Shown here: one piece after another, positions 1 to 8,226 of the stretch
Layout of the letters: each line of letters begins with the position of its first letter
How positions within the stretch are numbered: position 1 is the stretch's first letter
NCBI GenBank assembly: GCA_007120055.1
Contig: SKOL01000779.1
Coordinates: forward strand, 1-8,226
Direction of reading: 5' to 3'
Length of the DNA stretch: 8,226 nt
Origin: Anaerobacillus sp.
GTDB taxonomy: Bacteria > Bacillota > Bacilli > Bacillales_H > Anaerobacillaceae
Notes under the pieces: generated by a model
Databases searched by the model: none
What the model was told of the DNA's origin: nothing
Seen by the model: only the letters and a program-made list of their open reading frames with translations
Made by a program: the position numbers and the translations under genes

Positions 1-327
1 AAGAGAATCGTTAAAGAAACCGAAGACTTTGGTACTTGTGTATTACATTGTAAAGACTGTGATTATGAATTTGAGATGGATTGGGAAACAATTTTTGCAA
101 TACAAGAGTGTACTCATGGATCAATTGGAGTATTGATGCTGAAAAACTATAGAAGGCTCTTGTATATCTTTTATCATCTCATTGAGCATATGGAATTTGA
201 TTCTCAGTCATTAAAGTATGTAAAATGCTTGAGGCGAGATGTACCTCATTTTGGAACGAATGCATCATTTCCATTAGAGTCGGGTTTAAATAATCTTGTT
301 GGTTACTCACCGCACTATGTTTCTTAA
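1..327 (+). CDS. C-terminal part of a plus-strand zinc-ribbon-like protein, read through into antisense pseudogene sequence
   Basis: The frame is open from the first base, so the gene starts outside the window. I do not recognise the family. Roughly the first 40 codons look like real protein: acidic and aromatic, with a CxxC pair (HCKDCDYEF) and a later CTHG, a pattern that could bind zinc. From base 122 on, the frame reads the antisense strand of a degraded copy of the gene at 5937-6533, so about the last 68 residues before the TAA at 325-327 are probably not ancestral sequence. This is the only plus-strand gene and it converges on the minus-strand array. The duplicated segment seems to have landed in, or replaced, the 3' end of this gene. 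The ATG at 76 is internal and not a likely start. The coding part is likely; its function is unknown. Confidence 0.5.
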   Translation, partial: KRIVKETEDFGTCVLHCKDCDYEFEMDWETIFAIQECTHGSIGVLMLKNYRRLLYIFYHLIEHMEFDSQSLKYVKCLRRDVPHFGTNASFPLESGLNNLVGYSPHYVS

Positions 328-458
328 AACCGTAAAAAACGCTAATTAACAAGAGGAAAACTAATAGATAATATCTCTTTTTTGAAATTTAAATCACACG
401 CAATCCCCTCAAATCTGTAAAAAGTTAACAAATTGTTGACCTCAACACGTTAAAGCTC
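122..458 (-). pseudogene. Internally deleted, inactivated copy of the anchored helical protein gene at 5937-6533
   Basis: Bases 122-180 match 5941-5999 and bases 181-458 match 6317-6593, with about nine bases in ten identical by eye. The 317 bp between them (6000-6316) are absent, with the junction at 180/181. The copy keeps the upstream region, a 17-bp near-palindrome (424-440) and the GAGGGG ribosome binding site. An extra base beside that site and several substitutions turn the start region into GTG ATT TAA, so translation would stop after two codons. Homology ends just before the parent's stop codon, and a plus-strand gene follows. No boundary element lies between this copy and the next gene (459-486), unlike the rest of the array. 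The parent encodes a protein with one N-terminal membrane anchor and a helical extracytoplasmic domain. Confidence 0.88.
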
Positions 459-486
459 ACCATTATGAAAAAGTAAGATTAATAAA

Positions 487-1032
487 TTAGTCCTTTTCAT
501 GTTCAATGGTTTCAAGTTTATAATGGTTATCAAATAGTCTTTTATAGTATCTAATTGTATACTTTTCATTTTCTTCGACAAGATTCCAAGTTGTCGCTGG
601 TACTTCAACTTGAATTTTTTAATTAGGATCATTTTCACTTCTTAAATTAATGTAATGCTTGTCGTCAACTAAAATCTTTTCCTCTGCCTTCATACTCACT
701 GCTATTCCAGCACTTCCAGTATGATCATATATATAGCTAGCCCCATACATAATTGGCATTAATATAATCAAAAAGACAGCACATATTATTAACGTTTTTG
801 ACACCGCTTTAGGTAATTTTTCTCTACCCTTTCCTGTGTACCATCCACTAAATTGTAGTTTATTTCTATATAAAACAAAAATTAAGATAAAAACACCGAG
901 CATAGCTGTCCATCCATATTTTTCTGTATCAATTCCCATATTCGAATAAATAGCATGAGGCATTCCACCTATTAGTGTTGCAAGAATAGCAAAAATGAAA
1001 ATAATCCTTAGTAACTCTAACAATACCCGCAC
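487..1032 (-). pseudogene. Three-helix membrane protein with C-terminal extracytoplasmic domain, interrupted by an in-frame TAA
   Basis: Translation starts at GTG 1032, a few bases after a run of G ending in GGGAG, and gives 137 residues to a TAA at 619-621. The same frame stays open for 43 more codons to a TAA at 487-489. That extension looks like genuine protein, including VEVPATTWNLVEENEKY and a Tyr/Lys-rich end, as expected for the rest of an extracytoplasmic beta domain. The most economical reading is one protein of about 180 residues broken by a single substitution, for instance a GAA or AAA codon changed to TAA. Hydrophobic segments lie near residues 10-24, 41-55 and 80-97, with a conserved-looking FSGWYTGKGREKLPK loop between the second and third. 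The truncated form would keep all three helices and lose most of the last domain. I do not recognise the family. The next unit downstream is the inactivated duplicate. Confidence 0.75.
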
Positions 1033-1052
1033 ATTACTCCCCCCCCATTATG

Positions 1053-1083
1053 TCTTCTTCACCAACGCCATCTGTTAGTTGAG
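1053..1083 (-). repeat. Boundary element 1
   Basis: In gene sense it reads CAACTAACAGATGGCGTTGG. The CTAACAG core contains the TAA stop codon (1075-1077) of the lipoprotein remnant upstream. CAAC and GTTG form short inverted arms. It lies between that remnant and the next gene's G-rich ribosome binding site. Confidence 0.5.
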
Positions 1084-1568
1084 TTCTCTATAAGACAACA
1101 CATTTAATCCACCTAACTCAAAAATTAGTTTTTCGTTGGCTATTAATAAACCTTTAGGAATCTGAACCCCTATCCATTGTTCATATCCATATTTCTCACC
1201 GTCTCCACTTCCCCTCGGTATTCAACAAACAAAAATCCTCCATCTTTTTCAGGAACTGAATACACCTTTGTCCCTTTTGGTAATTTGGTTGCACTAAGGT
1301 CATTAAACAGCAAGGTACTGGTAGTCTGTTTTTCTATTTCACCTACAAAGTAATCTTTAGAAAATGAAATTTTCTCTCTGTCATTTTTGAACCATTCTAA
1401 ATTTGTCACATTACTAAAAATTCTGCCGTCATACTGAATAATGTCCGCATCTTTGTTTTGTTTCAATACGTCTCTGGCAGTCACTATTCCACCATCAGCT
1501 ACACCACAACTTGCAAGAAAGAATATTATTAAAGGTGCAAACAAAGCTACAATTAACGATTTATATAT
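1075..1568 (-). pseudogene. Lipoprotein gene with lost ATG start and a frameshift near its 3' end
   Basis: The sequence has a hydrophobic signal segment and a lipobox LASC with the lipidated Cys about 21 residues in, followed by a soluble extracytoplasmic domain. A GGGAGG ribosome binding site at 1578-1583 is followed, 8-9 bases on, by AUA (1566-1568), not a normal start. In-frame TTG and ATG codons further upstream lie before the ribosome binding site, in what looks like intergenic repeat, so they are poor starts. Near 1200-1208 the frame breaks. The initial frame ends at 1170, whereas another frame continues convincingly (EKYGYEQWIGVQIPKGLL) to a TAA at 1075-1077 inside a boundary element. 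The ancestral protein was about 164 residues. Two separate lesions argue for a dead gene rather than one sequencing error, though AUA initiation cannot be excluded. Family not recognised. Confidence 0.72.
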
Positions 1569-1632
1569 ATAATGTTCCCTCCCGTATTTCAACGTGATTA
1601 CTTGTGCAAGTAACTGACTCTTAAACGTAATA

Positions 1633-1730
1633 GAAGCTGCCGAATTCGATAGCTTCCTGTTCAACTTCGTTAAAACACAACAGCTGCAACAGGTTACTAA
1701 ACTATTGCTACCCGTTTGATTAAGTAGTTT
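1633..1730 (-). repeat. Boundary element 2, apparently two units
   Basis: In gene sense the first part reads TTAATCAAACGGGTAGCAAT then AGTTTAGTAA, a good match to the array consensus, with its core at 1710-1718. It starts 38 bases after the stop of the 1768-2427 gene. A second stretch has TTTTAACGAAG and an inverted repeat GAAGCT (1633-1638) with AGCTTC (1651-1656), which looks like another, more diverged unit. Confidence 0.55.
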
Positions 1731-1767
1731 TCTTCACAAGCAGTTTTTCCTGAACTAGGTTACTATT

Positions 1768-2427
1768 TTATAACTCTCTTTTACTTTTCCCAGACTTTAA
1801 AATAATGTCAACACCGTTAGCTGTGCCACCCCAAATATGGTTTTCCAATGTTGAGATATCAATTTCTGTTTCTAGATAAACAGTTTTTCTTTGCTTCCCA
1901 GAAAGAGTAATTTCATGTAGCCCGTGATGATTCATTAGAGTGAGCATTTTCGGGTCATCCTCAAAACGAAATCGATCATAGAACTCAACTGTAAATTCAA
2001 CTGGATTTCTACTATGATTTACAAACGGAAGCTTACAAGAACCTACTAATGTATCATCATCAATCATCGTAAATATACAATTACTTGCCTGGCGATCATA
2101 AGAAACTGCATGAATGCCGGTCGCGACTGTTTGTTGAAAGATACTAACTAAAAAGACTGGTCCACCCATCATAACCACAAATGCGATGAGAACAAAACGC
2201 CCTCTATACTTTTTCAAAGAGTTAGACAGTAGGAACAAACTAATAATGACAAGAAGGAGCGAAAAAATCCCCACATAATGAAATCCTCCAAAAAAACGAT
2301 ATGGGACATTTAAGCTCACCAAAACAGTCTCGGCTAACGGTCGTGTATGTGGGTATGGTAAGTTGAGGAAAATCACAACTAAGATGATACCTATCGACCA
2401 ATAAAAGTATTTCTTGTTTTCAATCAT
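1768..2427 (-). CDS. Membrane protein with three N-terminal helices and a C-terminal extracytoplasmic domain, unknown function
   Basis: An intact 219-residue ORF starting at ATG 2427, with GGGAG about 8 bases upstream. Hydrophobic segments lie near residues 8-24, 51-69 and 78-97. From about residue 100 the protein is soluble and beta-rich in character, with Cys at 117 and 131 that could pair as a disulfide outside the cell, and an aromatic/acidic stretch EFTVEFYDRFRFEDD. No catalytic motif is visible and I do not recognise the family. It is preceded by a 196-base gap and followed by boundary element 2. It is one of the few larger genes in this part of the array without a visible lesion, so it is probably still made. 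Confidence 0.85.
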   Translation of the reverse strand: MIENKKYFYWSIGIILVVIFLNLPYPHTRPLAETVLVSLNVPYRFFGGFHYVGIFSLLLVIISLFLLSNSLKKYRGRFVLIAFVVMMGGPVFLVSIFQQTVATGIHAVSYDRQASNCIFTMIDDDTLVGSCKLPFVNHSRNPVEFTVEFYDRFRFEDDPKMLTLMNHHGLHEITLSGKQRKTVYLETEIDISTLENHIWGGTANGVDIILKSGKSKREL

Positions 2428-2490
2428 TTCAACAACTCCCTAGTAGAAATAGTTTGTTTCCGCTGCTTTTATCTCTCCTTTCAAACTTTG

Positions 2491-2623
2491 CGAAGAGCCC
2501 TTTGTTTCAATAGTAAGCTATGTGTAACATTGCAACTCATCATTTTATTAACGCTCTTCGTTACTTCAAGAAGTTATTTATTTTTTATCAAACTTCGCTT
2601 CTTGGAAAAAAATGCCCTGTTAG
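2491..2623 (-). repeat. Boundary element 3 with two inverted-repeat pairs
   Basis: The CTAACAGGG core (2615-2623) directly abuts the TGA of the propeller lipoprotein gene (2624-2626). Beyond it lie two inverted repeats: CAAGAAG (2567-2573) with CTTCTTG (2598-2604), and CGAAGAGC (2491-2498) with GCTCTTCG (2553-2560). The rest of the 2428-2623 gap shows no credible gene; a 20-codon ATG frame inside it lacks a ribosome binding site. Confidence 0.5.
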
Positions 2624-3634
2624 TCAGTAGTTTATTAGAGACAAGTCTTCTTTATCAGGATTAAATCGATATAAATAAGTATGATCGTCTGTATTCCAAT
2701 CCAATAAATAAAGTGTATCGTCGATAATATTAATCCAATTCCAATTTTTTTCTCCACGATAAATCTCGGTCGGGTTGCTACCATCAATATTCATTCTAAA
2801 TAATGCTGGGTTTTCATTTGAAGAAAAATATAAGTATTCAGATGATTTATCTATCAAATGCAAACGCCCTTCAGCTAGCCCTTCCACGCTACCATCTACT
2901 AATGAAAGTCTGAATATATTCGTAGAAGAATCTTCGGCATAAAGGCTATAAAACAACGTATCATCACGGTTTTCAAAATAAATCCATTCTCTATCAACTA
3001 AAAAATTAGTTGTTGATATTGCAATATCGTGCTTCGTCCTTAACTGAACTTTATCGTCCCCAGACGGTCGCATTTTGTACACGTGACCGCCGGATGAAAC
3101 AGCATAATATATCCAACCATCATACCATTGAAGTCCATTGATCATTTCTTCAACTAGCTGCACTTGATCTGAACCATCAACCTTAGATCGATACAGACCG
3201 TCTATTCCTACCTTATAGAAAATGCTATAAAATATATAATCATTAACAATAATTGGCATGTTTGTGTGATGACTATGAACTTTTTCGATGTCTTTAGGGT
3301 TATCTTTGTGGACGCGATAAAACCCACTGCTTCCTACAAAATCGGAACTATGAGAAGCGAAATAAATATAGTCACCATAGAGATTTAACCCACGTGCATA
3401 AGTATTTTCATAGGTTTCTTTGATGATACCGTTTGTACGGGTAATGTCGTGATTGTTTTCTCCATCAATATAATAAAACCAGTCACTTTCTTTTGCAACG
3501 AACCCAAATTGATTTGAGTTCATTGGCTCGTTACCAGTTATATATGGAGGCTCGATCTCCAACTTTGAAAGATTACAACTAACCAACAACAGAAGTAAAA
3601 ATACTACAATAATCGTGATAATACTTTTTTTCAT
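2624..3634 (-). CDS. Extracytoplasmic lipoprotein with DUF5050-type propeller repeats
   Basis: An intact 336-residue ORF. ATG 3634 is preceded by AAGGGGGAAACT. The signal peptide is Lys-rich then strongly hydrophobic and ends in a lipobox LVSC, so Cys20 should be lipidated and the protein held on the outer face of the membrane. The rest consists of repeats of about 45 residues. Each has a 'W/Y-I-Y-Y/F' strand (DYIYFASH, DGWIYYAV, EWIYFEN, YLYFSSN) followed by a turn of the type LYR/KMxxDGSxxxxL (GLYRSKVDGSDQVQL, ALFRMNIDGSNPTEI). This is the pattern of the DUF5050 / low-density-lipoprotein-receptor-like beta-propeller domain, a binding rather than catalytic scaffold in general. The ligand cannot be read from sequence. 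It is the largest gene in the window and the clearest domain call. Element 4 lies upstream and element 3 begins at its stop codon. Confidence 0.88.
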   Translation of the reverse strand: MKKSIITIIVVFLLLLLVSCNLSKLEIEPPYITGNEPMNSNQFGFVAKESDWFYYIDGENNHDITRTNGIIKETYENTYARGLNLYGDYIYFASHSSDFVGSSGFYRVHKDNPKDIEKVHSHHTNMPIIVNDYIFYSIFYKVGIDGLYRSKVDGSDQVQLVEEMINGLQWYDGWIYYAVSSGGHVYKMRPSGDDKVQLRTKHDIAISTTNFLVDREWIYFENRDDTLFYSLYAEDSSTNIFRLSLVDGSVEGLAEGRLHLIDKSSEYLYFSSNENPALFRMNIDGSNPTEIYRGEKNWNWINIIDDTLYLLDWNTDDHTYLYRFNPDKEDLSLINY

Positions 3635-3660
3635 AGTTTCCCCCTTATCGATTGATTATC

Positions 3661-3728
3661 GAACTATCCTGCTTTATTAGCAGAACAGCGGCAGCCTTTA
3701 TTAAGCTATCGCTCTTGTTAGTTAAAAG
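3661..3728 (-). repeat. Boundary element 4, near twin of element 6
   Basis: In gene sense it starts TTTTAACTAACAAGAGCGAT and later contains CTGTTCTGCTAAT and AAGCAGGATAG. It matches element 6 (5311-5380) at most positions over about 58 bases, the closest pair in the array. The core CTAACAAG is at 3714-3721. It lies before the G-rich ribosome binding site of the propeller lipoprotein. Confidence 0.7.
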
Positions 3729-3820
3729 CCATTATTCAGATAATGAGAACTTTTATAATATATCATTTTAAAAAACTGCTTTGTCAGTATATTACTCCCT
3801 CTACAAATAAACGAAAAGTT

Positions 3821-4256
3821 TTAACTATCGACTTCCGTAGTCCCTGATGAAAAAGTATTAAAGTTATATTCTGAATGGTAAAGAAGTTCCCCTTTTTCAT
3901 CATAGCCATTAATAAGAAAAGGTTCTTCGTAAGTAACCAATATGATGTACCAGATAGTAATCGCATTGTCATTTTGTAGCACTATCAGATTCATTTCGAA
4001 CAAATACGGTTTCTACATAGATTTGATTATTCCCTTCATCATAAAGCACTTTCCCCACATTGCTTCTTAAATAACTTAAATCAATTGTAACTGTATATTC
4101 TCCTTCAATAGGATAAGTTTGAAGATGATAACCATCTACATCGTTTGCAATAACGCTTATTCCATTTATCCAAAGATTTAGCCACCCACTTCCCCAAAGT
4201 GTTAACAAAATGACAAATGCACCAACAAGTGCCACCTTTATATGTGTTCTCCTCAT
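3821..4256 (-). pseudogene. Small anchored extracytoplasmic protein, frameshifted at an A-run
   Basis: Translation begins at ATG 4256, five bases after GGGGG, with an Arg/Lys N-terminus and one membrane segment at about residues 8-24. It continues as a soluble domain with DLSYLRSNVGKVLYDEGNN and YVETVFVRNESDSATK, where the frame ends at 3969. A second frame overlapping this end is open to a TAA at 3821-3823 and reads DNAITIWYIILVTYEEPF and YDEKGELLYHSEYNF. That is a plausible continuation of the same domain. The switch falls at the short run ACAAAATGAC (about 3968-3977). Removing one A joins the halves into a protein of about 144 residues. This could be real inactivation or a homopolymer error in the assembly. 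A programmed shift seems less likely because the A-run is short and I see no stimulatory structure. Family not recognised. Confidence 0.72.
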
Positions 4257-4289
4257 ATAATCCCCCTAACATTTAAAAAACAAATTGCT

Positions 4290-4356
4290 TTTCACTATTG
4301 CTCCTCATTACTTCAATAGTACTTCCGCTGCCCCAGTAGAATTTTCGTTAACTAAA
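4290..4356 (-). repeat. Boundary element 5
   Basis: The core is GTTAACGAAAAT (4341-4352), 24 bases past the stop of the 4376-4942 gene. It is followed by GGGGCAGCGGAAG and a perfect 7-bp inverted repeat, ACTATTG (4294-4300) with CAATAGT (4314-4320), separated by 13 bases. Confidence 0.5.
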
Positions 4357-4375
4357 AAAAGCATATTTTGAAGTC

Positions 4376-4942
4376 CTAATCAATTGGTGGAATTTGCAAC
4401 AATATTTGCTCATTACGATCCACGATATTCTCTATGAAATGAGCTAACTCTATATGTTCGTCTTTTAGCGTTGTATTTGTTGTGCGAAACAACTCATATT
4501 TTTCATTAAATTTATTAGAAACTGTTTGTAAATTTTTATTAAATTCACTTAAATATTCCTGTTGCTCTTGTGATAAGGTCTGACCCTCATTACGATAAAA
4601 ATATTTTGTTACCGTAATATTCACTTGTTGTCCAAGTAGAAAAAGACTACTAGACAATTCACTCATTTCATAACTTGGTAACCCGCCATTTAACCTCAAA
4701 TATTCAGAATTAGATACCATCCATAGGTAGTTTTCTTCATTTTCAAAGTCTTCAATTACCTTTTCCATATTATTAGTTAATTGTTGAAATTGATTGACAT
4801 ATTTATTGAAATGATCATCATTAATAAAATCAATATATTTATTTGATGTATATAATGCATTAAATAAATATAGGTTACCAAATAAACTTAAAACTAACAT
4901 TATTCCTATAACTTTTTTATTACTTATCAAACTTTTAAAAAT
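4376..4942 (-). CDS. N-terminally anchored, helical extracytoplasmic protein, possible AUU start
   Basis: There is one hydrophobic segment near residues 12-30. About 155 mostly helical, Asn/Gln/Glu-rich residues follow, for example FNKYVNQFQQLTNNMEKVIE and QEQQEYLSEFNKNLQTVSNK, which may form coiled coils. No enzymatic motif is seen. The architecture matches the protein at 5937-6533 (short cytosolic end, one anchor, helical outer part of similar length), so the two may be remote paralogues; this is inference. The start is odd. GGGGGAGG is followed, five bases on, by an in-frame AUU (4940-4942) giving 188 residues. The nearest normal start, TTG 4930, is 17 bases from that site and gives 184 residues. 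Either the original ATG mutated to ATT or AUU or TTG is used weakly. The frame is otherwise intact. Confidence 0.75.
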   Translation of the reverse strand: MFKSLISNKKVIGIMLVLSLFGNLYLFNALYTSNKYIDFINDDHFNKYVNQFQQLTNNMEKVIEDFENEENYLWMVSNSEYLRLNGGLPSYEMSELSSSLFLLGQQVNITVTKYFYRNEGQTLSQEQQEYLSEFNKNLQTVSNKFNEKYELFRTTNTTLKDEHIELAHFIENIVDRNEQILLQIPPID

Positions 4943-5190
4943 AATTTCCTCCCCCTTACTTAAAAAAGGCTAAATGTAATTTTACCACAAAATTCCACAC
5001 CCCCTTCTTACCAGTACGTATTTAAATTACATTTCTACGTAATGATTCAATCGTGAAAAGAGCCGCACACTATCATTTCAATATTAACATTATTTACCTT
5101 TTTGTTGTTAGAAAACTTTAAAAAGCTTTACTTCATTTTTGAAGTAAAGCTCTCTATTGTTACATACGTCTCTTCACAAATGTTATTTTG
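4943..5190. other. 248-base gap between the 34-residue microprotein and the 4376-4942 gene
   Basis: This is the longest gene-free stretch in the window. It holds the terminator of the upstream microprotein unit at 5112-5151. Beyond that is a perfect 11-bp inverted repeat, AAATGTAATTT (4972-4982) and AAATTACATTT (5024-5034), and two copies of the palindrome TACGTA. A TGGTAAAAT box (extended -10 type, in gene sense) lies upstream of the ribosome binding site, but I find no good -35 for it, so a promoter here is only suspected. No boundary-element core is obvious in this gap. Confidence 0.4.
5112..5151 (-). terminator. Strong intrinsic terminator
   Basis: The perfect 11-bp stem AGCTTTACTTC / GAAGTAAAGCT (5124-5134 with 5141-5151) has a 6-base loop and is followed on the minus strand by TTTTAAAGTTTTC. 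It would end transcription of the 5191-5295 microprotein unit. It is the only textbook terminator I can find in the window. Confidence 0.85.
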
Positions 5191-5295
5191 TTATTTTTTT
5201 GATAATAAACGAATTAATAGCCAAATACCTCCAACAAATAAAACAGTAATAATCAAAATCATCATTAAGCCTGGAATACCCACATTAGTTAACAA
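5191..5295 (-). CDS. 34-residue single-helix membrane microprotein
   Basis: TTG 5295 lies seven bases after GGGGGG and opens a 34-codon frame ending in Ser-Lys-Lys and TAA. The product is a short polar N-terminus (MLTNVGIPGL), one hydrophobic helix at about residues 8-28 and a basic tail (RLLSKK), so it probably spans the membrane once with the tail in the cytosol. The G-rich ribosome binding site, the preceding boundary element and the strong terminator after the stop all support a real gene. The IPGL start recalls the beginning of TatA proteins, but the FGP hinge and amphipathic helix of TatA are missing, so I do not call it that. It is intact unless it is the stump of something longer. Function unknown. 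Confidence 0.65.
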   Translation of the reverse strand: MLTNVGIPGLMMILIITVLFVGGIWLLIRLLSKK

Positions 5296-5310
5296 AACAA
5301 ATCCCCCCTA

Positions 5311-5380
5311 TTAACTTTGCTAATTGCTTCATTAGCAGAACAGCAATAGCCTATATTAAACTATCGCTTCGTTAGTGAAA
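5311..5380 (-). repeat. Boundary element 6, near twin of element 4
   Basis: In gene sense it reads TTTTCACTAACGAAGCGATA then GTTTAATATAGGCTATTGC and CTGTTCTGCTAAT. Core CTAACGAAGC is at 5366-5375. Inside it is a 7-bp inverted repeat, TGCTAAT (5318-5324) with ATTAGCA (5331-5337). It sits between the two microprotein genes and ends just before the GGGGGG site. Confidence 0.7.
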
Positions 5381-5405
5381 AGTAATATTGAATTTGAAAG
5401 TTGGT

Positions 5406-5501
5406 TTATTTATTACTCTTACTTCTAAATGTCAAATACAATATAAAAAAAATTAAAATGACTAATCCAATCAGAATTGGATTTGATATAATAAATTGCA
5501 T
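5406..5501 (-). CDS. 31-residue single-helix membrane microprotein
   Basis: ATG 5501 lies seven bases after GGAAGGA and opens 31 codons to a TAA at 5406-5408. The product has a short polar start (MQFIISNP), a continuous hydrophobic helix at about residues 8-25, and a basic tail (FRSKSNK), predicting one membrane span with the tail in the cytosol. It is flanked by element 7 upstream and element 6 downstream, exactly as the longer genes are, which is the main reason to believe it. No family is recognised; proteins this small are often missed by gene callers. It could be a stable microprotein or the remains of a longer gene. Confidence 0.6.
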   Translation of the reverse strand: MQFIISNPILIGLVILIFFILYLTFRSKSNK

Positions 5502-5562
5502 GAAAACATCCTTCCATAAAATTTGCCCTAGATAAAAAATCGACTTCAATGCAACAAGAAAA

Positions 5563-5603
5563 ACTTAGTTGCTACTGTTTCACTTAAACGTTCGTTTCTT
5601 GAA
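5563..5603 (-). repeat. Boundary element 7
   Basis: This diverged copy follows within a few bases of the stop of the 5608-5831 gene. In gene sense it reads AAACGAACGTTTAAGTG and then AACAGTAGCAACTAAG. It keeps the AACG core and a GTAGC segment like element 2, and has a short TTCTT/AAGAA inverted repeat at its start. The match is weaker than in elements 2, 4, 6, 9, 11 and 12. Confidence 0.4.
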
Positions 5604-5607
5604 GAAG

Positions 5608-5831
5608 CTACTTTTTCTTTAAGGAAATAACTAATAATACGATTCCAACTACTAAAAATATCGGAGTAAAGATGTTATCAAAAAAAGAATATTCTTCGAT
5701 AGTCGGATATGAACCCGCCGTCTTTATTAGCGCAAGCCAGTGTACAGTAGAGCTCAAGCGTTCAATTGAATAAATTAAACCACTAGTTAAAATAAATACA
5801 GAACCTAAAATTAAACTTGTGTTTTTTTCAT
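5608..5831 (-). pseudogene. Two-helix small membrane protein, frameshifted at an A-run right after its ATG
   Basis: A very strong ribosome binding site (GAGGGGGGAG) is followed five bases later by ATG (5829-5831) and seven A's. In that frame translation ends after six residues (MKKTQV then TAA). The long open frame, ending in a basic VVGIVLLVISLKKK, is offset. One more A in the run would give MKKNTSLILGSVFILTSG, a normal start for a 74-residue protein with helices near residues 5-22 and 54-70. No start codon suitable for the long frame lies after the ribosome binding site. A GTG at 5877 would open that frame earlier but places the ribosome binding site inside the gene, so it is a poor choice. 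Real decay, slippage-based switching and an assembly error are all possible. Family not recognised. Confidence 0.7.
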
Positions 5832-5870
5832 CTGTTCTCCCCCCTCTTTTCTGCTCAATACTAAAACAAA

Positions 5871-5910
5871 GCGCCACTGCTGCTATTGCAGTAACGCGTT
5901 ACTTTAAGTG
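5871..5910 (-). repeat. Boundary element 8 with a 14-bp perfect palindrome
   Basis: In gene sense it reads CACTTAAAGTAACGCGTTAC and then TGCAATAGCAGCAG. AGTAACGCGTTACT at 5890-5903 is a perfect palindrome that contains the core-like TAACG. It lies between the stop of the 5937-6533 gene and the next ribosome binding site. Confidence 0.5.
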
Positions 5911-5936
5911 AATACAATCACAATTTGCTATAAAAC

Positions 5937-6533
5937 CTACCAATTGAGGTATTGATGTTGAAAAACTATAGAAGGCTCTTGTATATCTTTCATCATCTCC
6001 ACCCAATACGTTCGTTTAATTATATCGTTAGAAACATTATAGCGACTGGACACTTCATTCCATGCAACGGTGGTTTCATATATGAGTTCTAACATTGATT
6101 GCACTTTCGTTGGGAATGTGATCGAATCCATTCTATCCAAGTTATCTTCTAAGAAATTCTCTTCTATATATTCTAAATAATTGGCAATTAAATAAGATGT
6201 GCTTTTCGTTGCGTTTTCTAATCCTTGCGCACGACGAGGATATATGGCTCTACCCATTTTTTCCATTTCATAACTAGCATCTTCTATGACTATTAATGCC
6301 CTATTTAGTTGTTTCCATTGAGCATATGGAATTTGATTTTCAGTCATTGCAGTATGTAAAATGCTCGAGGCAAGATGCACCTCTTTTTGGAACGAATGCA
6401 TCATTTGCATTAGATGCGGGTTTAAATAGTCTTGTTGATTACTCACCTCACTATGTTTCTTAAAACCGTAAAAAACACTAATTAATAATAGTAAAATTAA
6501 TAGATAATATCTCTTTTTTGTAATTTGAACCAC
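5937..6533 (-). CDS. N-terminally anchored helical extracytoplasmic protein, intact parent of the 122-458 copy
   Basis: A frame open from 6566, but GTG 6533 is the best start: GAGGGG lies six bases upstream, giving 198 residues. The N-terminus is basic (ITKKRYY) and followed by one hydrophobic segment at about residues 9-23. The remainder is helical and charged, including LMQMMHSFQKEVHLASSIL, EDASYEMEKMGRAIYPRRA and NYLEYIEENFLEDN, and likely lies outside the membrane. No catalytic motif is visible and the family is not recognised. In overall plan it resembles the protein at 4376-4942. A shortened, inactivated copy lies at the left of the window. Comparing the two shows that the upstream region, including a 17-bp near-palindrome, was copied with the gene. 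The intact frame suggests this copy is still functional. Confidence 0.85.
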   Translation of the reverse strand: MVQITKKRYYLLILLLLISVFYGFKKHSEVSNQQDYLNPHLMQMMHSFQKEVHLASSILHTAMTENQIPYAQWKQLNRALIVIEDASYEMEKMGRAIYPRRAQGLENATKSTSYLIANYLEYIEENFLEDNLDRMDSITFPTKVQSMLELIYETTVAWNEVSSRYNVSNDIIKRTYWVEMMKDIQEPSIVFQHQYLNW

Positions 6534-6558
6534 AAGCAACCCCTCAAATCTGTAAAAA

Positions 6559-6575
6559 GTTAACAAATTGTTGAC
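6559..6575. promoter_or_regulatory. 17-bp near-palindrome upstream of the anchored helical protein gene
   Basis: GTTAACAAATTGTTGAC reads almost the same on both strands, apart from one mismatched pair and the central base. It ends 26 bases before the GTG start and is identical in the duplicate at 424-440, although bases around it differ. It may be an operator or an mRNA hairpin; there is no direct evidence for either. Confidence 0.35.
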
Positions 6576-6607
6576 CTCGACACATTAAAGCTCTTTAGAC
6601 TTACATA

Positions 6608-6636
6608 ATTTGAACTAGAGATACCCGTTAGCTTAA
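6608..6636 (-). repeat. Boundary element 9
   Basis: In gene sense it reads TTAAGCTAACGGGTATCTCT then AGTTCAAAT, one of the best consensus matches. Its TAA (6628-6630) is itself the stop codon of the DUF3953-like gene. The duplicated segment described at 122-458 ends 15 bases beyond it. Confidence 0.65.
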
Positions 6637-6867
6637 TAAACCATTTATACTGACAAATAAAACAAACCCAGAACAAAGAAAAAGAAAAATACTTGTCACT
6701 TTTCGTTTCTCTTGAAATTGAGTAATTCCCAAAACTAAAAGCATTATCCCTAAGAGTAATTGCGTTTGAAAAAGTATTCCGTATTCACCCGTTATTAAAC
6801 TATACGCTGATAAAGAAAGTACAACTAATGCTAAAATTGTTTGTGTTATTTTCAACCATAATTTCAA
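6628..6867 (-). CDS. DUF3953-like small three-helix membrane protein
   Basis: A 79-residue ORF starting at TTG 6867, ten bases after AGGAGG; the ATG a few codons in is a less likely alternative. Hydrophobic segments lie near residues 8-25, 34-49 and 58-75. A short loop, LITGEYG, separates the first two helices and a basic loop, QFQEKRKVTS, separates the last two. Length, three-helix layout and the pattern of a charged loop followed by a final helix ending in FVSI are those of the small Bacillus membrane proteins grouped as DUF3953 (YczI type). No function is established for that family as far as I know. The stop codon lies within boundary element 9. The frame is intact. Confidence 0.75.
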   Translation of the reverse strand: MKLWLKITQTILALVVLSLSAYSLITGEYGILFQTQLLLGIMLLVLGITQFQEKRKVTSIFLFLCSGFVLFVSINGLLS

Positions 6868-6904
6868 TCAAATTCCACCTCCTATTTTTTTACAAACCTG
6901 CTTC

Positions 6905-6979
6905 AATACTGCGCTTGGAAGAGGATCCGTCGCAACGACAGCTTATTTTTTACTAATGTATAAATGAATGACGTTTTAA
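6905..6979 (-). repeat. Boundary element 10, diverged
   Basis: In gene sense TTAAAACGTCATTC, overlapping the TAA of the 6976-7218 gene, is followed by CATTAGTAAAAAATAAG. This resembles TTAAACTAACG and CATTAGTTCAAA of element 12 but with a longer gap. A small GTCG/CGAC hairpin lies at 6929-6939. It is a weak member, included by position and partial match. Confidence 0.35.
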
Positions 6980-7218
6980 TTCTTTGGCATAGTAAAAGTT
7001 GTTGTAATACTTTTATCTTTCTCTAATTTTTCATAAATTTCTTTTATTACTTCTAATGCCCTTTCATTTGAGTCATATTTTCCTAATACCCTATCCCAAA
7101 AAACAAGTAAACTTCTACTTACAATACCTTCTATGTTGGTCCCATTCGCTGTCTTTCTAATTCTAATTTCTTTTACATTTAATAAATTATTCTTATCTTG
7201 TGTGATTATCCATAACAT
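6976..7218 (-). CDS. Small soluble protein of unknown function
   Basis: An intact 80-residue ORF. ATG 7218 follows GAGGGGAG by six bases. It has no signal peptide or membrane helix, so it should be cytosolic, unlike most of its neighbours. It opens with MLWIITQDKNNLLNVKEI and has a central LGKYDSNERALEVIKEIYEK stretch followed by a short strand, ITTTFTMP. This beta-then-helix layout, with the 'L-G-x-Y-x-S-x-E-x-A-x-x-V' run, is seen in many small uncharacterised Firmicute proteins, chromosomal and phage-borne. I cannot name a family with confidence. Elements 10 and 11 flank it. Confidence 0.78.
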   Translation of the reverse strand: MLWIITQDKNNLLNVKEIRIRKTANGTNIEGIVSRSLLVFWDRVLGKYDSNERALEVIKEIYEKLEKDKSITTTFTMPKN

Positions 7219-7238
7219 TAAATACTCCCCTCTCTTTC

Positions 7239-7290
7239 AAAAATTTAGCGATAACCTTTACTCAGTTATCGCATATCGTTTGTTTAAGAA
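7239..7290 (-). repeat. Boundary element 11
   Basis: In gene sense it reads TTAAACAAACGATATGCGAT and so on, starting seven bases after the stop of the DUF1871-like gene. A perfect 8-bp inverted repeat, GCGATAAC (7248-7255) and GTTATCGC (7265-7272), has a 9-base loop. The tail TAAATTTTTG after it is too weak for a sure terminator call. Confidence 0.65.
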
Positions 7291-7294
7291 GAAA

Positions 7295-7579
7295 CTACTT
7301 TTTCTGTTTAGTTTCTGCCCAAATTTTTCGGGAAACTGGCAAACACTCTTCCTCTGAAAAGCTCCAACCAAACGCTTTAGTAAAAATCTGTGCAATGCCA
7401 TCTGAAAGAGTATTTACAGTGTCAACATTACTTAATAAAGAAACAATTCTTGCTATTTCAAACTCATATTCATCGTCAGGTGCAGAAGGCAACAACCCAA
7501 CAGGGTCCCATTCATTAACTATCTTTTTTACTATATTAAATGTCGCATTATATTTCTCTTTAAGATGTTTATTTGACAA
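7295..7579 (-). CDS. DUF1871-like small soluble protein (YugE type)
   Basis: A 94-residue intact ORF. TTG 7579 is preceded by AAAGGGGAG at about eight bases. It has no signal or membrane segment. The N-terminal helix leads to the motif VNEWDPVGLLPSAPDDEYEF (residues 21-40), then EIARIVSLLSNV, a second helix, and a C-terminal FSEEECLPVSRKIW. The W-D-P-x-G-L-L and P-D-D-E-Y signature with the E-E-C-L-P end is what I associate with the DUF1871 family, which includes B. subtilis YugE. Its biochemical role is not established. Recognition is from memory of the motif, not from a search. Elements 11 and 12 flank it. Confidence 0.78.
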   Translation of the reverse strand: MSNKHLKEKYNATFNIVKKIVNEWDPVGLLPSAPDDEYEFEIARIVSLLSNVDTVNTLSDGIAQIFTKAFGWSFSEEECLPVSRKIWAETKQKK

Positions 7580-7616
7580 TAAAAAATCTCCCCTTTAGGT
7601 TGCACAACAACTAATT

Positions 7617-7649
7617 CCTTTTTTTGAACTAATGCTTCCGTTAGTTTAA
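7617..7649 (-). repeat. Boundary element 12, best consensus copy
   Basis: In gene sense it reads TTAAACTAACGGAAGCATTA then GTTCAAAAAAAGG, ten bases after the stop of the last lipoprotein gene. AACTAA and TTAGTT form a perfect 6-bp inverted repeat around CGGAAGCA. The hairpin is followed by A's, not T's, so it is not an intrinsic terminator in the gene direction. Confidence 0.7.
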
Positions 7650-7659
7650 TAAATTTAAT

Positions 7660-8166
7660 TTATTGTAATGACTCAATAACCTTATTGAATTCATTTTCCT
7701 CAAGCCCGACTGAAACGACTCTGTAATAAGGATACATCGAAATTTCGTCTCTAGGTATGATAGGTATAAATGAAAACTGAAAAAATTCTTTGTTTGGAGT
7801 TTTTTTGTACTCTCCAACAAAATCGCCAATTTTTAGATAAGTGAAATCAGGACTCTTATCATACGGATTTTCTCCTGTTTCGGCAAACTTTAAAAGTCTT
7901 TCCCAATTTAAATAGGTGTGGTCATCTTGTGTGATATGAATGCGTTTTGTTCCGTCTCCATTTTCATAAGATATTCTAAACAAGTTGTAATCTGTAATTA
8001 CACTTTTGAACTTTAAATCAGAAGGGATATATTCTGGTAGTAATACATGATATTCAATATCCTCAATTGCATCATCAATTACTTGTTGCTCATCTACATT
8101 ATTCGAACAACCTACTATTAAGACAGAAACAATAGTTAAACAAAAATAGAATAATTTTTTTCTCAT
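7660..8166 (-). CDS. Small lipoprotein of unknown function
   Basis: An intact 168-residue ORF. ATG 8166 follows TTAGGAGG by seven bases. The signal peptide (MRKKLFYFCLTIVSVLIVGC) has a lipobox IVGC, placing the lipidated Cys at residue 20 and the protein on the outer membrane face. An acidic linker (residues 22-39) leads to HVLLPEYIPSDLKFKSV. A 'LP-x-Y-I/L-P' strand like this opens DUF4367-type domains found on the outside of Bacillus anti-sigma and related proteins, so a remote relation is possible. Later segments such as KRIHITQDDH fit such a beta domain, but the match is weak. It is the first unit of the array as seen here; another boundary element begins at the right edge. Confidence 0.85.
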   Translation of the reverse strand: MRKKLFYFCLTIVSVLIVGCSNNVDEQQVIDDAIEDIEYHVLLPEYIPSDLKFKSVITDYNLFRISYENGDGTKRIHITQDDHTYLNWERLLKFAETGENPYDKSPDFTYLKIGDFVGEYKKTPNKEFFQFSFIPIIPRDEISMYPYYRVVSVGLEENEFNKVIESLQ

Positions 8167-8193
8167 AGTTCAACCTCCTAAATAACTCTTTAA

Positions 8194-8226
8194 ACAAGAA
8201 TAGCAACAACTTCTTGTGCTAAACTG
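8194..8226 (-). repeat. Boundary element 13, cut by the window edge
   Basis: In gene sense CAGTTTAGCACAAGAAG resembles the second half of element 2 (ATAGTTTAGTAA). A 7-bp inverted repeat, ACAAGAA (8194-8200) and TTCTTGT (8211-8217), follows. The expected CTAACG core would lie just outside the window. Confidence 0.4.

Follow-up and report, generated by a model that had tools for sequence, protein, structure and literature searches.

We analysed an 8,226-nt stretch of Anaerobacillus sp. DNA (contig SKOL01000779.1 of assembly GCA_007120055.1, positions 1 to 8,226; hereafter the window) that carries small open reading frames (ORFs) on the minus strand and, in thirteen of the gaps on this strand, a short near-palindromic core in which the arms CTTnTTnAACTAA and TTAGTTnAAnAAG flank an asymmetric centre of 8-9 nt. 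An earlier note on this DNA had described such a core in twelve or thirteen gaps at or after stop codons and had offered three explanations for it: a recombination boundary of gene cassettes, a family of RNA elements, or a dispersed repeat that prefers gene ends. We recovered the core as described. Twelve gaps hold a core of the type that follows stop codons (LEFT), at or after the stop, at 7644, 7282, 6631, 5906, 5598, 5375, 5159, 4351, 3721, 2564, 1718 and 1078 (positions give the first core base on the minus strand, to which all cores listed below belong). A second type (RIGHT), often found 35-135 bp beyond LEFT, stands alone in the thirteenth gap (6909) and occurs further at 5335, 4311 and 3680. 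LEFT and RIGHT were assigned in the window by eye from position and centre, and the RIGHT matrix scores best for the LEFT-assigned cores at 7282, 6631, 2564 and 1718.

Comparison with other genomes revealed that the units between these cores change their order, a point that the earlier note had asked to check: window units lie rearranged on six contigs of Anaerobacillus arseniciselenatis at 86-99% identity (matches of at least 100 bases; two further matches there are paralogous, at 71-72%). One complete cassette, LEFT to LEFT with ORF 7295-7579 (7277..7645, minus strand), recurs (369 bases, 93% identity) in an array of another genome, G194, where exactly this window cassette (7645-7277) sits between unrelated cassettes as a whole gene unit bounded by cores, with homology running from ACTAACG to CAAACG and none outside. 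The homology with A. arseniciselenatis and G194 begins at 7645, one base ahead of the LEFT core CTAACGGAAGCATTAGTT (7627..7644, score 30.0) that follows the stop of ORF 7660-8166, and that with G194 ends at 7277, within the weak LEFT copy CAAACGATATGCGATAAC (7265..7282, score 8.7). In A. arseniciselenatis, contig L170 has the DUF3953 gene linked through its core to the segment beginning at 5154, so that about 1.5 kb with ORFs 5937-6566 and 5608-5877 is absent there; the breaks with this contig fall at 6902 in the RIGHT core GTATTGAAGCAGGTTTGT (6892..6909, score 25.1), at about 6628 in the LEFT core CTAACGGGTATCTCTAGTT (6613..6631, score 16.6) and at 5154 in the LEFT core CAATAGAGAGCTTTACTT (5142..5159, score 19.7). 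At 4305, in an element composed of a LEFT core (4334-4351) and a RIGHT core (4294-4311; together 4294..4351, scores 10.3 and 17.7), homology stops for both L166 and L081, and L081 homology ends again at 1712 in the LEFT core CAAACGGGTAGCAATAGTT (1700..1718, score 12.9), near which L168 homology ends at 1710 with strict and at 1666 with looser scoring. G194 homology starts at 1079, next to the weak LEFT copy CTAACAGATGGCGTTGGT (1061..1078, score 8.8). L168 homology also starts at 2494, in a probable RIGHT core assigned by eye (2490..2500), which the matrices did not recognise and at which the endpoint script did not accept the break. When all four models were used in this script, 13 of the 33 alignment ends in the window lay no more than 25 bp from a core in one or other partner, compared with 5.3 expected; models never exposed to Anaerobacillus gave 6 of 33 versus 1.3 expected.

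The anatomy of the site was resolved in Oceanobacillus chungangensis, in which a pattern search of nine genomes found runs of same-strand matches on three contigs. LEFT has the form CTTaTTnAACTAA - 8 nt - TTAGTTnAAnAAG with the centre C(T/G)GGTGCn (logo of 114 copies), and RIGHT carries the same arms around the 9-nt centre (A/C)GGGGCAGn (logo of 60 copies). The site consists of inverted 13-bp arms around an asymmetric centre of 8 nt (LEFT) or 9 nt (RIGHT), from which orientation was read; Anaerobacillus cores have identical arms and centres such as CGAAAGCn. In 173 kb of O. chungangensis we counted 221 cores, 143 LEFT and 78 RIGHT (score 12, overlaps merged), or 144 and 79 before merging versus 0 and 1 in mononucleotide shuffles, with matrices trained on these very arrays, so that the independent test lies in other genomes. 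The arrays are built in one orientation and usually from one gene per site: 214 of 217 array sites (score 14) point the same way, only 11 of 141 LEFT sites lie inside an ORF, though ORFs cover 69% of array bases, and 123 of 140 LEFT sites are preceded by an ORF on the same strand, with a median of 41 bp from stop to site. Sequence linkage is lost across the core. In the arrays of five genomes we found 100 LEFT-RIGHT pairs, 137 solo LEFT and 31 solo RIGHT cores. A shared stretch like TTGTGAAGnnnTGTACTTAAA precedes many LEFT cores in both Anaerobacillus and Oceanobacillus (L081-L086, L166-L173, L067-L074).

The earlier note had seen no recombinase in the window; a tyrosine recombinase is encoded in sister arrays instead. 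One O. chungangensis array holds an intact gene for a protein of 284 amino acids (aa), which runs antisense to the sites; two further, broken copies are found at other places in the arrays. The protein belongs to a family of 279-284-aa tyrosine recombinases found in such arrays, often flanked by cores, and has the expected catalytic residues R140, K164, H230, R233, H256 and Y265. In sequence it comes nearest, among solved structures, to XerD (1a0p), an archaeal XerC-like protein (4a8e) and XerA (5hxy). Its NCBIfam scores stay below the cut-offs for XerA (208 of 220 bits), XerD (207 of 330) and XerC (202 of 335), as does its score against the IntI model TIGR02249 (98 of 265). A tree of 40 proteins groups the 23 family members in a single clade (100/100) that excludes the XerC/XerD-like proteins encoded by the same genomes as well as IntI1 of R388; the latter carries about 42 alignment columns absent from the aligned family members. 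The sister group consists of four longer proteins (97/92), and the deeper placing is unsure because of long branches. These sister recombinases (L198, L200, L201, L203) come from related genomes, measure 304-334 aa, are 35-40% identical and have an N-terminal extension of about 20-50 aa. Among phage records, eight matched the recombinase at E 1e-30 with a best identity of 41%, hence it has no close phage relative in that collection.

Sites are concentrated around the genes of this family. The surroundings of 20 recombinase genes from 19 genomes (371 kb) contained 132 sites at score 10 and 86 at score 18, compared with 5 and 1 in a control of 400 kb of stretches from ten of the recombinase-bearing genomes. 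The orientation of the recombinase gene relative to its array follows its relatedness to the query: at 72% identity or more, sites lie on the opposite strand (199:6 in 16 loci, the overlapping L215 being left out), and at 66% or less they lie on the same strand (49:4 in 12 loci), as seen on comparing L204-L214 with L215-L223. Of 18 distinct recombinase copies in the close clade, 9 have a core within 132 bp on the 5' side and 8 have one 76-82 bp away on the 3' side, as though the gene were one more unit, in inverted position. The intact query gene is less closely flanked, with cores at 496 and 885 bp.

These observations bear on the dispersed-repeat explanation, in which elements resembling miniature inverted-repeat transposable elements (MITEs) or repetitive extragenic palindromic (REP) sequences sit at gene ends and homologous recombination between them shuffles genes. 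It would account for the 134 pairs of LEFT sites that share their downstream flank only, LEFT-to-RIGHT segments being sequence families common to unrelated genes, and for cases in which the repeat alone is shared, such as the 50-bp central segment 6947-6898 that recurs at 98% in G208 beside other neighbours. However, movement with ends at the core extends beyond repeats to whole genes, the shared sequence at these ends amounts to a short and imperfect core, and the elements are associated with a recombinase family. By sequence, the mobile unit appears to be the gene and not the repeat, repeat-only sharing notwithstanding; the explanation leaves open why homology over whole genes should stop at the core, and we consider it quite unlikely.

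We next weighed the folding of the elements. A role in RNA processing, RNA stability or termination at gene ends would be in keeping with the hairpins in the central segments, some of which have T-runs, and with a mean fold Z of -2.1 relative to mononucleotide shuffles (80 elements). Against this stand the loss of linkage inside the core, where gene units break, and an Rfam search of the window that yielded four sub-threshold chance matches and no family at threshold. As an account of the elements the RNA explanation is very improbable, describing at most the hairpins between LEFT and RIGHT; the central segment may have a role in transcripts alongside recombination. An attC-like folding test on 97 elements found no covariation between the arms, although their conservation limits this test, and we therefore relied on weight matrices and breakpoints in place of the covariance model that the earlier note had proposed.

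The same test is relevant to a diverged but true IntI/attC integron, in which the LEFT-RIGHT pair would be an attC site recombining as a folded single strand. In its favour, the two simple sites with unequal centres and a variable spacer resemble attC in their anatomy, cassettes of one gene share one orientation, and one cargo gene is the integron-associated Cass2. As in chromosomal integrons and clusters of attC sites lacking integron-integrases (CALIN), the arrays are made of mostly one-gene units in one orientation with one site per unit, have a tyrosine recombinase beside or inside them and, in some cases, none detected. The IntI family is defined by an IntI-specific insertion. Unlike integron integrases, the recombinase falls outside the IntI cut-off and lacks the IntI1 insertion, and judged by both it would not be an IntI-family integrase; the sites show no covariation for a folded attC and include solo LEFT cores, and after a break at LEFT the central segment stays attached to the gene downstream. 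We regard a true integron as unlikely: the system would work like one but, by the tests made, does not appear to be one in the IntI sense.

Other site-specific systems offer partial parallels. With Xer/dif the present system shares a recombinase closest by sequence to the XerD, XerC-like and XerA structures and a site in which, as in dif, a short centre separates two inverted arms; it differs in having many sites per genome at gene ends and a recombinase that forms a separate clade below the XerA, XerD and XerC cut-offs and hence does not seem to be of XerC/XerD/XerA type. The pdif modules of Acinetobacter plasmids are small gene modules bounded by recombinase core sites on which the host XerC/XerD act. 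Compared by description, the small core-bounded gene modules are alike, whereas here a separate recombinase family resides in the arrays in place of host XerC/XerD.

Collectively, these data suggest that the elements most likely serve as recombination sites in an integron-like system of gene cassettes in Bacillaceae, the first of the earlier note's three options: units move singly, breaks are enriched at cores and a tyrosine recombinase is present in sister arrays. The sites are probably double-stranded and the system probably has its own recombinase. We further lean towards the view that it is a Bacillaceae equivalent of the integron, assembled independently, in which a dedicated tyrosine recombinase, often lodged as a unit in arrays of its own, shuffles single genes via double-stranded palindromic cores. 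Sites, units and breakpoints are read from the DNA itself, and from there we infer what the recombinase does and how. It would bind the arms of the core, and strands would be exchanged between two double-stranded LEFT cores, or between two RIGHT cores, within their conserved centre, thereby excising, inserting and shuffling units. A unit would run from LEFT to LEFT and comprise the central segment, with a terminator-like hairpin and sometimes a promoter and ribosome-binding site, and usually one gene. The array in the window would be partly decayed or served by a recombinase outside the window.

Several observations weigh against this interpretation. The earlier note had asked whether breakpoints fall at the core; the 13 ends given above do, and the other 20 of 33 lie elsewhere, among them six at 764-780 (ORF 619-1032) and three at 4940-4958. 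To judge by the genome comparisons, cassettes are nonetheless acquired, dropped or relocated one at a time, with breaks at the site. In O. chungangensis 39 of 68 alignment ends lie outside cores, linkage at RIGHT sites is weak, and the sites there were counted by matrices trained on them. Among the 20 recombinase loci, three lack sites altogether and a fourth has a single one. A. arseniciselenatis yielded no member of this recombinase family at E 1e-40, and three or more pattern matches still occur in 22 of the 169 O. chungangensis relatives that lack a strong match to the recombinase (one at E 1e-100 or better). Such numbers of matches are found in 12 of the 28 genomes with a strong match (p 0.0005; the 28 genomes and the classes of three or more matches were counted by hand).

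Across the 197 O. chungangensis relatives as a whole, the recombinase was detected at E 1e-40 in 44 (query included) and the core pattern in 99, while a reversed-pattern control gave 17 matches in all (hand count). Among 398 genomes drawn evenly through the phylum, the pattern occurred in 15 and the recombinase (E 1e-85) in 4, query genome included, and we narrowed the idea of a phylum-wide reach accordingly. Of 120 A. arseniciselenatis relatives, 32 have the recombinase at E 1e-40, some with window-like cores: G194 has two copies (73% and 77%), and G207 one (74%); an array lies there on the other strand, its first site at score 12 being 2.8 kb from the gene. Arrays occur on chromosomes and on one Sporosarcina plasmid.

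In a passage on taxonomic distribution, the IntegronFinder 2.0 report (PMC9024848) calls integrons extremely rare in Firmicutes, with one complete case (Limnochorda pilosa), few CALIN and unclear reasons for such gaps; a statement in a 2008 study (PMC2426708) gives none in 103 complete Firmicutes genomes, and a list in a further article (PMC8618304) includes Firmicutes among phyla with integrons. With a separate recombinase and site, the present system would probably be missed by IntI/attC searches, and an independent equivalent, if true, would help to explain the near-absence of integrons in those searches of Firmicutes. Bacillaceae would gain a platform for gene-by-gene shuffling, whose units on the Sporosarcina plasmid include a mercury-reductase operon, and the system offers a direct test of cassette capture without folded attC sites. 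We found no description of such Bacillaceae arrays in the titles and abstract openings of the open-access literature, subscription papers and preprints being outside this scope.

Ten hand-picked cassette-position proteins of O. chungangensis and G021, not a random sample, all match a Pfam family: DUF192, methyltransferase, VTT/PAP2, alpha/beta hydrolase (two), glyoxalase, LysE, PhzC-PhzF, Cass2 and ASCH. The G021 cassette gene L175:9450-9857 matches Cass2, the integron-associated effector-binding family PF14526, which suggests cargo common to integrons. On Sporosarcina psychrophila pSP10-266k, cores delimit a merR-merA-NUDIX unit, an M1 peptidase gene, a hypothetical gene and a GNAT gene beside the recombinase. 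Defence models matched neither the recombinase nor five other proteins; one methyltransferase matched the mads_2 model, over its methyltransferase part.

Matrix searches also located cores in the window. At threshold 8, an arms-only LEFT model from Oceanobacillus gave four minus-strand and three plus-strand matches, compared with a mean of 0.095 per strand and a maximum of 2 in 200 dinucleotide shuffles, and the RIGHT arms model one and none versus 0.06. An Anaerobacillus model, partly circular with homologs of the window among its training loci, gave 9 LEFT and 10 RIGHT matches on the minus strand at threshold 8 versus 0.95 and 0.26 in shuffles; because the core is near-palindromic, its LEFT version also yields 10 plus-strand matches. 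With iteration (108, then 164 training sites) this matrix shifted towards the palindromic arms and gives matches on both strands, and it serves for location, not orientation. Scores of about 8 or more also occur inside ORFs, at 3997, 3040, 1625 and 663. Of the cores still to be listed, a divergent copy (5889..5906, score 15.1) is present in A. arseniciselenatis as a 41-47-base repeat, and LEFT cores lie at 5581..5598 (GAAACGAACGTTTAAGTG, score 22.7) and 2547..2564 (GTAACGAAGAGCGTTAAT, score 22.4). Element 5318..5375 comprises a LEFT core (CTAACGAAGCGATAGTT, 5359-5375), a central hairpin and a RIGHT core (CTAATGAAGCAATTAGC, 5318-5335) with weak scores (4.9 and 5.6) and forms an 86% direct repeat with 3670-3713. 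The latter lies in element 3663..3721, composed of LEFT CTAACAAGAGCGATAGCT (3704-3721), a central segment and RIGHT CTAATAAAGCAGGATAGT (3663-3680; scores 18.7 and 18.3), a pair that the Oceanobacillus arms models also recovered (20.4 and 25.7).

Two of the ten window proteins scanned passed a Pfam cut-off, as DUF5050 (2624-3634) and DUF3953 (6628-6867); the former, used as bait in a genome search, returned 14 pattern matches and no relative. The 219-aa product of a cassette gene (1768..2427, minus strand) has no Pfam family above cut-off and its closest named relatives in Anaerobacillus; A. arseniciselenatis encodes it at two loci (96% and 86%) with differing neighbours, which places the window in or close to that genus. 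A same-strand core within 400 bp was absent from 30 of 36 loci of this gene, present on one side in five and on both in one. Since it is mostly an ordinary gene, ordinary genes may be able to become cassettes. Window DNA matched plasmids once only, at 69% over 176 bases. Copies on Peribacillus frigoritolerans plasmids (two records), in two pieces without an annotated gene, were set aside, as their unchanged gene order shows no unit-wise change.

The window start (1-458) is a second, broken copy of gene 5937-6566 and its leader (5941-6593), in three pieces of 90-96% identity. ORF 619-1032 (137 aa) looks chimeric, its halves matching different partner genes with a junction at about 764-780, where the six alignment ends come from five genomic places and no core was recognised. 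At 4940-4958, a ribosome-binding-site region, A. arseniciselenatis has an extra gene inserted between similar TAAGGGGGAG sequences, a loss or gain of a unit away from a core.

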